Shown here one piece after another: positions 24,303 through 62,065 of a DNA stretch of 64,000 nucleotides. The DNA is from Geobacteraceae bacterium (GTDB taxonomy: Bacteria > Desulfobacterota > Desulfuromonadia > Geobacterales > Pseudopelobacteraceae): assembly GCA_013336525.1 (NCBI GenBank), contig JAAXTM010000004.1:62001-126000 (forward strand), written 5' to 3'. Positions within the stretch are counted from its first letter, which is position 1. Each line of letters opens with the position of its first letter. A program made the translations under genes and the position numbers. The notes beneath the pieces were generated by a model, which saw nothing but the letters and a program-made list of their open reading frames with translations, was not told where the DNA came from and searched no databases.

Positions 24303-24483
24303 CTCGTTTCTGCCTGAAAAGTCCATACATTTACTAAATGCGGCCTTTCACATCAAAGTATTTGTCATCCTTTCGGAGTTTTTTATCCAAATTCTTCAGC
24401 CCCACCACCGTAATATTTATCAGCATAAATTCCACATGAGTTTTTTCACCAGAAAAACCGAAAATCCTAAAACCTGCAGTCCC

Positions 24484-24600
24484 ATAACACGGAGACACTG
24501 AGAAATCAAAGGCTTAAGGTCTAAAGAAACTTTTTTGGTGAGCCATCAAACTTTTTATTTTATCTGTATATCTTCCGTGTTAGCTCTGTTCTCCGTGTTT
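24484..24600. repeat. Interspersed palindromic repeat, copy 2 (diverged)
   Basis: The left end is AACACGGAGACACTGAGAAA and the right end is CCGTGTTAGCTCTGTTCTCCGTGTT, inverted with respect to each other. The core AAAGGCTTAAGGTCT partly matches copies 1 and 3. The sequence lies in the roughly 410-base gap between the AMMECR1 gene and the first exported heptad protein. Apart from this repeat and the AT palindrome at 24653-24702 I see nothing else in that gap. Confidence 0.65.
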
Positions 24601-24632
24601 CAAATGCTTTTGTATAGGATAATTATCGCTTC

Positions 24633-24702
24633 TTGGGATTGAACGGTTGACGAATATAATAAATTGAATATATTATTATTTATATATTCAATTTATTATA
24701 TT
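24633..24702 (+). promoter_or_regulatory. Putative promoter with 21-bp perfect AT palindrome
   Basis: Bases 24653-24673 are the exact reverse complement of 24682-24702, separated by an 8-base spacer (24674-24681), so a 50-bp nearly all-A/T palindrome. A TATAAT (24655-24660) lies inside the left arm, with TTGGGA at 24633-24638, spacing 16. The next bases are TTGGAGCG, the ribosome-binding region of the gene starting at 24716. The palindrome could be an operator or an RNA hairpin controlling access to that site. The lack of G/C in the stem and lack of a U-tract in a G/C hairpin make a plain terminator unlikely. Confidence 0.6.
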
Positions 24703-24715
24703 TGGAGCGTGATTT

Positions 24716-25876
24716 ATGGCCAAAATTCTTGTAATTCTGTTTTTCACCCTGGTGACGGCCCTTAGCGCCGCGTCAGCTCAGGCAACCATCAGTACAGACC
24801 TGCAAGCTTTAACGATACAAGGCAACAACCTGCGCAATACATTAGCTACGATAAGTGTCAGCAGCGGAGATACCTGCTCTCAGCTTGGCAGTTTGAATAT
24901 TTCTATTGAAAACTACTTGACCAGCATACAAGGGGTTTACAACCAGATTGTTGTGCCAATCAATGTAACCTCTGCCGACCAGACGGCTCTTGAGGAACTT
25001 TCCGGAATCGCGAAAGACCTGGCAAGTGATTCTGTGCGCCTGTCCTTTGAGCTGCGCACTCTTGAGGGAGTTGCTAATCTTTTTGAATATCGAGCCGCAT
25101 TGAGCGCCATGCTGCGACTTTCTGACGATATTGGCACCATGGCCAACCGCATTCTTGAAATGGCGGACAGAATTCTTGCCATGGCCGACAATATTGGAAC
25201 TATGGCTGATCGTATTCTGATTACCCAGCAGATTCAAAACTCCAATATTGCGTTTACCCAGGGTTCTCTGCTTGCAACCCAGCAAAATATCGTTGCACTG
25301 AGTGGTAGTCTCTCTACCATCGGATACAATCTATCCCTCGGATTGTTGCTCAACGATACTAAAAACCAACTTACCGAAATGAATGGTGTAACGCTTGATA
25401 GTTCTAATATAGCAACTCAGTTAAGCTACTTTGAAACCAAGACAGCTCTGCTCATGATTCGTTCTCTGGCCATCTACACTCTAGTAACGAAAGACAGCCA
25501 AAACCTTAGCCATTACATAGATGGAGACACTCTCACACTTTTGGGTGATCTTTCAATTGCACAGAATGAATTCGCAATCGTATTGGAAAAATACGCCGCA
25601 ACGATCAACCAAATTGCCCCACTTATGCAAACACCCTTACTCTCCGATGCGACCGGAAGCATGTTACGCCTGACCACCGATGTTAATATAATGTCGAAAC
25701 GTATTATCGAGATGAACAGCAGAATTACCGTCATGGCAGACAATATCGGCCTTATGACTGATCGGATCGTATTAACACAAAACTTGCAACAGGCTAATAT
25801 TGAGCTGACTCAAAGTTCAATTTTGGCATCTCAGAATATCACTCTTTCAGTGATAAAGAACTTTATTGGTCAATAA
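24716..25876 (+). CDS. Exported methionine-heptad repeat protein A (unknown function)
   Basis: A 386-residue protein I do not recognise functionally. It has a clear signal peptide (about residues 1-23, cleavage near ASAQA), so periplasmic or surface. Two homologous segments of about 58 residues (133-191 and 316-375) contain consecutive heptads with Ile/Val at position 2 and Met at position 5, such as RILEMAD, RILAMAD, NIGTMAD, then RILITQQ and TQGSLLATQ. The protein thus appears to be two tandem modules. One Cys (residue 54) is conserved in position with its neighbour. Predicted helical coiled coil. The paralogue follows after 29 bases. ATG 24716 follows TTGGAG. Confidence 0.85.
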   Translation: MAKILVILFFTLVTALSAASAQATISTDLQALTIQGNNLRNTLATISVSSGDTCSQLGSLNISIENYLTSIQGVYNQIVVPINVTSADQTALEELSGIAKDLASDSVRLSFELRTLEGVANLFEYRAALSAMLRLSDDIGTMANRILEMADRILAMADNIGTMADRILITQQIQNSNIAFTQGSLLATQQNIVALSGSLSTIGYNLSLGLLLNDTKNQLTEMNGVTLDSSNIATQLSYFETKTALLMIRSLAIYTLVTKDSQNLSHYIDGDTLTLLGDLSIAQNEFAIVLEKYAATINQIAPLMQTPLLSDATGSMLRLTTDVNIMSKRIIEMNSRITVMADNIGLMTDRIVLTQNLQQANIELTQSSILASQNITLSVIKNFIGQ

Positions 25877-25905
25877 TTAAAATAGAATCTGAGGAGAATA
25901 CTGGT

Positions 25906-27075
25906 ATGTTAAATATTAAAAATATATTAAAGAGAATGCTGTTCATATCTACCTGTTTGATGTTGCAAACCGGCAATGCCCATGCTGATCTGTTTAATGA
26001 CGTCCAGGGTCTTGTAACGCAAGCCCAGGAGCTTGATGTACAGTTAAAAAACATCACATTGAACCCAAACTCACTTTGCGGCCCTCTCATTGCAGCCAAC
26101 CAGTCAGCGCACAATCTGGCAAACAGCATTACTCAGATAAATGCTAAAATTGCAGCCCCGCTTCAGATAGATTCAGTAACACTCGCTGCAATTGAGACAC
26201 TTTCAAGCACAATGCCAAGCCTGGCTAGCGAAAATCTACGGCTATCACTCGACCTTAAACAGATCACAACGGTAACTAATGCCATTACTTTGAAGGATGG
26301 GATTGTGGCAATGCTTCAGCTTTCTGATGACATTGGCAGCATGGCTGACCGTATTGGTGAAATGTCTGACAAGATTCTTGTAATGTCTGACAATATAGGT
26401 CTTATGGCAGACCGAATTATCGTTACCCAACAATTGCAAAGCCAAAATATTCTGCTCGTTCAGCAAGGCTTGCTACAAACCCAGACAAACACGCTGTCAC
26501 TTGTTTCTGTGGTGGAAACTGCAACTAACGATCTTTCACTGGCAAAATTAAAAGCCGAGGGTGATCTGCTGGTTGCACAACTTTCAGCCATTGTTTTAAA
26601 TCCTTTTACCATGACGACCCAGCTGAAAACCGCTACCTTAAGCGTCCGCACCTATCTCGACAAGGTGAAGTCAGCCCATGCAACCATACTTGATCAGTCA
26701 ATGCACAGTACCAGCTATATAAGCACAGCCTCACTCTTTAACCAGCAAAACATAACCATAATGCTTACAACTTTGGCGACAGTGATCGATGGCTATGCCG
26801 TTGCGATAAATGGTCTGCAGACAATTACTTCGCGTTCGTCCCTGAGTGATTCTTTAAAAAGCATGCTTCAGATGTCAGCAGACATCGGCCTCATGTCAAA
26901 TCGTATTCTGGAGATGGGGGATGTCATCCTGGCAATGTCGGACAACATAGGCATGGTCGCAGACGAGATTTTGGTCACTCAACAAATTCAGAATACCAAT
27001 GTGGCGACGACTCAGGCATCTTTACTTGCGACCCAGATATTCGCCGTAACGCTTATTAAGAATCTTGCGTTGTAA
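25906..27075 (+). CDS. Exported methionine-heptad repeat protein B, paralogue of A
   Basis: A 389-residue paralogue of the preceding protein. It has an N-terminal signal peptide (ending near GNAHA, residue 27), a Cys at a matching place (NPNSLCGPL), and the same duplicated architecture. One heptad block starts LSDDIGSMADRIGEMSDKI; the second starts MSADIGLMSNRILEMGDVI, both ending in TQ-rich tails (TQASLLATQ). Methionine-rich Ile/Met heptads suggest long amphipathic helices in a bundle. A GAGGAG ribosome site precedes the ATG. Likely one operon with A. Function unknown. Confidence 0.85.
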   Translation: MLNIKNILKRMLFISTCLMLQTGNAHADLFNDVQGLVTQAQELDVQLKNITLNPNSLCGPLIAANQSAHNLANSITQINAKIAAPLQIDSVTLAAIETLSSTMPSLASENLRLSLDLKQITTVTNAITLKDGIVAMLQLSDDIGSMADRIGEMSDKILVMSDNIGLMADRIIVTQQLQSQNILLVQQGLLQTQTNTLSLVSVVETATNDLSLAKLKAEGDLLVAQLSAIVLNPFTMTTQLKTATLSVRTYLDKVKSAHATILDQSMHSTSYISTASLFNQQNITIMLTTLATVIDGYAVAINGLQTITSRSSLSDSLKSMLQMSADIGLMSNRILEMGDVILAMSDNIGMVADEILVTQQIQNTNVATTQASLLATQIFAVTLIKNLAL

Positions 27076-27220
27076 CTGTAGAAGCATGATCAGGTGTGTT
27101 GTGCAGAAAACCTGTTGTAAGCGAACAGTGGAGAGGCCTTGCTAGAGAATCAAAAAAAATAACAATGCTAGAGGCAGAGGCGGCCCAGCAACCAAAGTAT
27201 AACATGGACGGTAAAGCCAG

Positions 27221-28105
27221 CTACCATACCGTCTGCGGCAACGTACGAACCATCACTTCAAACTCGCCGCCAAGCGGCGCAGTTGCATTAATTACTACTT
27301 TTTTGGAATTCTGAAACGTCATCGCTGAGCAATGCAGCATCATTCGTCCGTCCGGCTGACCGCCATAGGTTGCATCTCCGAGGATCGGCAGACCGACTGA
27401 TTCAAGATGAACCCTGATCTGATGGGTGCGACCGGTCAGCGGCCTGGCTTCGACCAATGAAATATCACCGGATGACGCCACCGTCCGGAATTCTGTCTGG
27501 GACGGCTTGCCCCCCTCGACGATTCCATAGCGTGCCGAGGCAATCTTCCCGATCGGCGCATCCACAGTCCATCTTTCCTGAACGGGGCGCCCACAGACTA
27601 ATGCAAGATATAGTTTTTCGACCAGCCCTTCCTGAAACTGCTTTGAGAGCCAGGCGGCGGCCTGCCGGTTTTTCGGGAATATCATCGTTCCCGATGTACC
27701 ACGATCAAGACGGTGGACAACCCGGGCCGGCTCACTATTTCCCTGCGCTTTGAAATATTCTGAGACCCAATATTCGAGCGTTCCTTTCAGCTGATAGGGG
27801 GTCCGCTGGCTGTTGATCCCGGCCGGTTTGTTGACGGCAATCAGCTCGGCATCCTCATACAGCAGCGCCTCCGGAGGCAGCTGCAATTCTTGAAACCGCC
27901 CCGCTTCAATGATGCCGATCTCTATGACGTCACCAGTCCTGACACTCCGCGACGCCACCCGTACCAAAGCTACATTCACCGTACAGCCACCCCGGTCGAT
28001 GATGCGACGTGCCTCTGACTTGCTGACCCCGGCACAGAGAGTGTTAATGGCATCGTCCAGCCGGAGACTGTTCTGCTCTTTTCCAACTATTTTTCGTATT
28101 ATCAT
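27221..28105 (-). CDS. RluA-family 23S rRNA/tRNA pseudouridine synthase
   Basis: A 294-residue protein. An S4-like domain lies at the N-terminus (SLRLDDAINTL ... SKSEARRIIDRGGC). The RluA catalytic motif is RVVHRLDRGTSG, with the active-site Asp. Further on are GRTHQIRVHL and LPILGDATYGG. It isomerises specific uridines in rRNA or tRNA; the site cannot be told from sequence alone. ATG 28105 is used instead of an upstream TTG. It diverges from the MnmM-like gene. Confidence 0.9.
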   Translation of the reverse strand: MIIRKIVGKEQNSLRLDDAINTLCAGVSKSEARRIIDRGGCTVNVALVRVASRSVRTGDVIEIGIIEAGRFQELQLPPEALLYEDAELIAVNKPAGINSQRTPYQLKGTLEYWVSEYFKAQGNSEPARVVHRLDRGTSGTMIFPKNRQAAAWLSKQFQEGLVEKLYLALVCGRPVQERWTVDAPIGKIASARYGIVEGGKPSQTEFRTVASSGDISLVEARPLTGRTHQIRVHLESVGLPILGDATYGGQPDGRMMLHCSAMTFQNSKKVVINATAPLGGEFEVMVRTLPQTVW

Positions 28106-61971: not shown

Positions 61972-62065
61972 TGGAATTTTAAGCGGAATAATCTGGTGAT
62001 TTTTAACCGGGTGGATGCTATAGTTCGCCATATAATTCAGATTATTGAGGCGGGGTTTAAAAACT

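Follow-up and report, generated by a model that had tools for sequence, protein, structure and literature searches.

In the accessible text of PMC12584133, the designed coiled-coil peptides called bundlemers are described as homotetramers, antiparallel in one design, which form rods when thiol-linked at their N-termini. Likewise, from the accessible text of PMC10386293, SgpD of Allochromatium vinosum is an exported sulfur globule protein of a sulfur bacterium with a predicted helix and a possible coiled coil. Here, we describe a tandem gene pair, A and B, of a Geobacteraceae bacterium (contig JAAXTM010000004.1), located in a 64,000-nucleotide (nt) stretch that was analysed as a whole (positions 62,001 to 126,000 of the contig; hereafter, the window). 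Together with their relatives, A and B constitute an undescribed conserved family without a named entry in the libraries searched. The pair is real, conserved and unnamed, and its members are partners, while its function can only be inferred from sequence.

A conserved tandem gene pair

The two open reading frames (ORFs) are as follows.

24716-25876, + strand: ORF A, first of the pair, 386 amino acids, ATG start, GGAG at 24704-24707
25906-27075, + strand: ORF B, second of the pair, 389 amino acids, ATG start, AGGAG at 25892-25896

Both start at ATG behind a GGAG-type ribosome-binding site, and the coordinates at which an earlier note, made from the sequence alone, had placed the two tandem ORFs were exact. 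The genes are separated by 29 nt and are tandem paralogs, sharing 35% identity (135/382) over a near full-length alignment (expectation value (E) 5e-68). Compared with the nearest relative, L003, both are under purifying selection, with ratios of nonsynonymous to synonymous substitutions of 0.16 (A) and 0.15 (B).

At E ≤ 1e-3, at least 976 homologs of A and at least 764 of B were found, two lists between which some overlap is possible outside the 120 entries shown for each; the readable names among those shown were all "hypothetical protein". A search of 84,980 species genomes yielded 89 confirmed loci, 78 of which were kept, including 24 full-size pair loci from Thermodesulfobacteriota, Campylobacterota, Pseudomonadota and Myxococcota (two loci). 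A was followed directly by B on one strand in 23 of the 24, the last being cut by a contig start, with gaps of −38 to 138 nt on a longest-ORF basis. In the 48-row tree, the A and B sequences each occupied one side of a branch with 100/100 support. Moreover, the distances among A proteins correlated with those among their B partners (24 pairs, r 0.91), a value not reached in any of 5000 permutations, although shared species history alone can also produce such a correlation. The tandem loci, the two separate clades and the correlated distances strongly support the "paired" character proposed in the earlier note, and the partnership of A and B is well supported; the pattern is the one expected of partners inherited together.

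Methionine-centred modules in A and B

Each protein comprises two copies of a 184-residue repeat (corresponding positions lie at residues 139 and 323 in A and at 143 and 327 in B), and each copy carries one module.

25088-25300, + strand: A module 1, residues 125-195, Ile/Met heptads followed by a polar Thr-Gln-Asn core
25640-25861, + strand: A module 2, residues 309-382, profile match with heptad columns
26290-26502, + strand: B module 1, residues 129-199, profile match with heptad columns
26842-27063, + strand: B module 2, residues 313-386, profile match with heptad columns

A profile of 30 module segments matched the pair four times, i.e., at the first copies, both contained in the profile (8e-29 and 1e-28), and at the second copies, which are not (4e-20 and 2e-17). 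With the same profile (E ≤ 0.01), no further copy was found elsewhere in the 3.5-Mb genome. The two modules per protein and four copies across the pair given in the earlier note are confirmed.

The Met-centred heptads, also noted earlier, were compared with shuffled sequences. In-phase heptad runs of the form [ILV]xxM reached 4 and 4 in A and 4 and 3 in B, whereas among 20,000 shuffles of each protein no run of 4 was obtained and 12 reached 3. None of the other stop-to-stop segments of at least 60 amino acids in the window (428 segments, A and B included) exceeded 2. The modules end in related tails, namely, TQGSLLATQ (A181), TQSSILASQ (A365), VQQGLLQTQ (B185) and TQASLLATQ (B369).

Specifically, column statistics over the B alignment (76 rows) and the A alignment (94 rows) placed Ile at position a and Met at position d in 89-100% of sequences in all four modules, with the exception of d351 in B module 2 (Gln 60%). 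Ala was frequent at e, less strictly in the second modules, and position c was the freest in three modules and the second freest in the fourth; in the first modules, the remaining six heptad positions had a mean entropy of at most 0.81 bits. Past the last Ile, the a/d core of the first modules turns polar (T, Q, N, T, S, T, N), a pattern to which the second modules adhere more loosely (Met in 56% at a362 of B). Across the 30 segments, the in-phase T/S-Q/E tail followed 2 (6 segments), 3 (5) or 4 (17) whole heptads, and two segments were unassigned. The modules of relatives thus differ by whole heptads.

Probable export signals and a single cysteine

Signal peptides were called by eye, without a predictor.

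24716-24784, + strand: probable Sec (general secretory pathway) signal peptide of A, residues 1-23, with a hydropathy peak and a cleavage site placed by eye between SAQA and TIS
25906-25986, + strand: probable Sec signal peptide of B, residues 1-27, cleavage placed by eye between NAHA and DLF
24875-24877, + strand: Cys54, sole cysteine of mature A, invariant in 94/94 aligned rows
26077-26079, + strand: Cys58, sole cysteine of mature B, invariant in 76/76 aligned rows (A itself among them)

The residue preceding each proposed cleavage site is conserved in at least 90% of sequences (A23 of A over 94 aligned rows, A27 of B over 25). The N-terminal hydropathy peak of B lies below the threshold of 1.3, making the signal evidence weaker than for A.

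The two cysteines share one aligned column and fall in the first unit of each protein. Exactly one cysteine after residue 30 was found in 117 of the 120 listed A homologs (two had none and one had two) and in 117 of the 120 listed B homologs (three had more), i.e., in 234 of 240 together.

AlphaFold predicted both proteins to be helical almost throughout, with two isolated bridge residues in B. According to these models, a unit of approximately 184 residues would consist of three shorter helices followed by a region of approximately 75 residues comprising heptads and polar core. In B, this region was modelled as helices of 75 and 74 residues (126-200 and 313-386), and in A the module helix was broken, hairpin-like, at 156-159 and 343-347.

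Proposed role and alternative explanations

We propose that A and B form an exported coiled-coil hetero-oligomer, a four-helix rod or scaffold, and see roughly an even chance that this is correct. A and B would together make up an exported pair, mainly alpha-helical, whose four module helices (A1, A2, B1 and B2) would assemble outside the cytoplasm into a rod in the form of a four-helix coiled coil. By analogy with bundlemers, the module helices of A plus B would supply one tetrameric bundle. The lone cysteines would permit an A-B or an end-to-end disulfide, and the assembled rod, located in the periplasm or on the cell surface, might act as a fibre, a stalk or a scaffold. The structural envelope or surface proteins envisaged in the earlier note are compatible with the signal-like N-termini, the predicted helices and the heptads.

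Several observations speak against the proposed rod. The models are weak (mean predicted local distance difference test scores of 60 and 61, predicted template modelling scores of 0.35 and 0.52) and disagree with each other, showing a broken, hairpin-like module in A versus one long helix in B. The match to designed peptides described below is short, and their link to bundlemers is assumed, 9NO8 being unmentioned in the accessible text of PMC12584133. In addition, no surface-anchoring gene was present among the 12 named neighbours of the pair, and the module relatives L051, L064 and L060 have no obvious signal peptide by eye.

Alternatively, each unit might be a compact bundle of five helices with affinity for a hydrophobic ligand or surface, in the manner of the lipid-binding domain of fungal Mp1 and Afmp4p; the Ile/Met face would then line the pocket, and the module helix would fold back at the DNIG motif. 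That domain is helical and occurs in tandem in Mp1, and the A model aligns with it structurally, but the models compared are of low confidence and the Z value lies within the range of which the tool warns for helical bundles. A sequence link was absent, as Pfam gave no match to this domain (E ≤ 1 for single sequences, E ≤ 0.01 for alignment rows) and profile searches gave no such PDB chain at E ≤ 1. We regard this as a minor possibility.

A further explanation, compatible with the coiled coil, is that A and B handle zero-valent sulfur or polysulfide outside the cell, their thiol and Met-rich helices binding or coating sulfur; we consider this unlikely. In its favour, 12 of the 24 pair loci come from lineages with well-known sulfur metabolism by our own classification (Sulfurovum, Sulfuricurvum, Desulfocapsa, Desulfurivibrio, Thioalkalivibrio and others), the other 12 being named only broadly. 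Within Campylobacterota, soxB was found over the cut-off in 8 of 14 module carriers and in 46 of 284 other genomes (p 0.0009; 7 of 13 and p 0.003 without the seed genome), a test that ignores kinship and habitat and in which soxB was not found over the cut-off in 6 of the 14 carriers. Additionally, in three of the 24 loci, A is closely preceded by a rhodanese-like gene on the opposite strand.

L004, 8106-8591, strand opposite to A: rhodanese-like gene
L005, 3138-3572, strand opposite to A: rhodanese-like gene
L009, 8410-8868, strand opposite to A: rhodanese-like gene

At the other 21 of the 24 loci, however, no member of the rhodanese cluster was present in the stretch examined. The pair is also no core sulfur gene, because only 3 of 395 genomes of the phylum sample carry it. 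Purple sulfur bacteria store sulfur globules. A globule coat as the general role was downgraded, since only 2 of 77 genomes matched in the family to which the Halochromatium genome belongs, i.e., the seed (E 7e-25) and one other (E 2e-4). Outer-membrane thiols have been proposed to act on S0, as far as the accessible text of PMC8780430 goes. Overall, the association of the module with sulfur is suggestive only; if true, it would provide a testable component for cell contact with insoluble sulfur. Combining both ideas, sulfur-cycle and vent microbes might use a mobile heptad module to build extracytoplasmic four-helix rods, with the A:B thiols both linking rods and touching zero-valent sulfur; a fibre of this kind would bind sulfur and be a candidate for the step with which the use of insoluble sulfur begins, a reading that seems quite improbable to us.

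A two-component secreted toxin or other weapon of long helices would suit a tandem, probably exported, helical, sporadic pair in a discrete insertion, but is highly improbable given that no small partner gene recurs beside the pair (ORFs of at least 80 amino acids), viral contigs yielded neither relatives of B nor the module, plasmids and phages yielded no relative of B, no toxin family exceeded its cut-off for A or B, and the module also occurs in lipoprotein-like proteins and beside extracytoplasmic function (ECF) sigma factor genes.

Insertion and gene neighbourhood

The pair lies in a discrete insertion.

24303-27220, + strand: region absent from related genomes, inserted between convergent flanking genes (AMMECR1-like and pseudouridine-synthase-like in our reading)

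Carriers of the pair, the present genome included, numbered 2 of 39 in the genus, 3 of 76 in the family and 3 of 395 in the phylum sample. Congener loci were taken as the 20 best of 37 places in 36 genomes, one of which was the locus of the window, leaving 19. The matches to the two flanking genes ended 2-49 nt apart in 16 of these 19 versus 2,919 nt here, and the other three had no second flank within 1.5 kb. Similarity to ten such loci stopped at approximately 24303 and restarted at 27232 or later. The guanine-plus-cytosine (GC) content of the region was 44%, against 53.5 and 55.1% in the flanks, and its third-position GC was 47% versus 63-67% in three comparison genes. Because only 413 and 145 nt lie outside A and B, there is no room for an insertion enzyme. 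Phylogenetically, the window pair grouped with Desulfurivibrio-type pairs (support 100/95 for A and 92/87 for B), which makes horizontal gain likely, and these sequence data suggest that the pair was probably acquired as a two-gene cassette. A viral or plasmid origin was rejected: with B and the module (not A) as queries, no relative of B was found in IMG/VR, phages or plasmids, and no module in IMG/VR.

A perfect 21-nt inverted repeat with an 8-nt loop is located at 24653-24702 of the window, immediately 5' of the ribosome-binding site of A, and the RNA of 24640-24720 folds at −26.8 kcal/mol (z −7.4). The repeat, a possible operator or hairpin at the 5' end of the mRNA, was not apparent in the upstream alignment with L003. 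A conserved promoter was discarded as a candidate, with only 8 of 512 columns invariant in the upstream DNA of seven loci.

Around the pair, genes shared by close relatives set aside, only the rhodanese-like gene (3 of the 24 loci) and a broad cluster of signalling proteins (10 of the 24) recurred. Neighbouring ORFs were picked mechanically, and L039, L043 and L055, which carry relatives, stood outside the neighbour clustering. The 12 neighbours that were named comprised seven members of this cluster (kinases, regulators and a diguanylate cyclase), a chemoreceptor, an aminotransferase and the three rhodanese-like proteins.

The module in other proteins

The same module, 45-60 residues long, recurs in many quite different proteins, mainly from microbes of the sulfur cycle and of vents. 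At least 436 proteins matched the module of L028 (E ≤ 1e-3). According to genome labels, most of them of metagenome-assembled genomes, the loci found in the species-genome search come from one haloarchaeon and no fewer than five phyla of bacteria. As judged by eye for both signal peptides and lipoprotein features, the proteins with the module include small exported-looking ones of Campylobacterota (L028, of 154 amino acids with a single module, and L029), lipoprotein-like proteins of the twin-arginine translocation (Tat) type in Sulfuricurvum, Thiomicrorhabdus and others, proteins of Chloroflexota, and, in Thiomargarita, Marithrix and Halochromatium, short proteins in which no signal is obvious. 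Because some relatives lack an obvious signal peptide, export is not a fixed companion of the module. A strongly conserved module, with six of seven heptad positions constrained in the first copies, that is present in at least five phyla and unnamed in the libraries searched is a missing annotation entry.

Some of these loci have features of their own. The Tat-type group (seven loci within L069-L076, L071 and L072 being incomplete) shares the next downstream gene, identified as LolA_like in 5 of 5 scanned; six of the loci also share a convergent gene after it, of approximately 613-622 amino acids where complete, which gave no Pfam match in the one scanned (L073). In Chloroflexota, an ECF-type sigma factor gene lies downstream of the module gene in 4 of 4 loci (L040, L048, L049 and L050), followed in three by a further shared gene, which is zf-HC2 in the two scanned (L049 and L050). 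The combination of module, ECF sigma factor and zf-HC2 is possibly an envelope-stress operon. A zf-HC2 gene also adjoins the module gene in L035.

Two Sulfurovaceae ORFs (L063, 9602-16801, 2,399 residues; L066, 7526-14551, 2,341 residues) contain several module copies and Met-rich repeats. In L078 (8510-9742), repeats of approximately 11 residues (DDAYxFxxxxx) precede the module; we take them to resemble the 11-residue amphipathic repeats of lipid-droplet proteins. Haloferax profundi L080 (7334-7813), which begins with a Tat-like sequence and carries two MADRI heptads, is an apparent archaeal occurrence. Meanwhile, L056 and L027 contain other adjacent pairs of module genes, with lengths unlike those of A and B, and the second gene of L056 runs off its contig.

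Comparison with known proteins

No family in Pfam or NCBIfam exceeded its cut-off for A or B, single-sequence searches of PDB gave no chain below E 0.3, Foldseek gave no PDB match at E ≤ 0.001 for either model, and the literature searches made with the module motif strings found no paper. Judged by the family cut-offs of Pfam and NCBIfam, and by PDB searches with each sequence alone (E ≤ 0.001), the earlier statement that the proteins match nothing nameable thus holds, although weak DUF7162 matches and matches of the A profile to helical barrels remain. The latter, obtained with residues 25-118 of A, concerned designed single-chain helical barrels (five PDB chains at E ≤ 0.001, best 4e-7), one of which was also matched by the B profile (E 0.068). 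We treat them as a product of regular-helix composition that nevertheless supports a helical-bundle N domain. The remaining structural-alignment (VIA) matches were helical bundles of many kinds.

DUF7162 (PF23721), itself a family of unknown function, matched, at E ≤ 0.01, 23 of 76 rows in the B alignment and 83 of 94 in that of the A family (best 1.8e-7 in the latter), and the match covered the heptads in 9 of 10 relatives shown singly. Its cut-off of 27 bits was passed by 2 of 10 hand-picked relatives (29.1 and 28.0). However, A (15.5 bits) and B (12.5 bits) both fell below it, the best score in the genome search was also 15.5, and only part of the 80-position profile was covered.

SgpD resembles A and B in the traits given at the outset, a comparison made by description only. 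According to the accessible text of PMC10386293, it contains prolines at regular intervals and occurs almost exclusively in Chromatiaceae, whereas Pro amounts to only 0.7% (A) and 1.1% (B) after position 30 across the 240 listed homologs.

The best PDB sequence match of the module profile was a designed coiled-coil nanotube peptide. The designed peptides (PDB 9no8 and 9ncj), matched over 23 residues at E 0.006 and over 22 residues at E 0.044, have IxxMAxx heptads with Ile at a, Met at d and Ala at e. A and B show the same heptad pattern, that of a bundlemer-type tetrameric coiled coil as defined from the matched peptide. The designed peptides differ in being synthetic chains of 30 residues, whereas A and B are natural, hetero-paired, approximately 390 residues long and have a polar-core half. 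Should the pair prove to be nature's version of the designed coiled coil with Ile/Met/Ala heptads, it would be of interest to protein designers.
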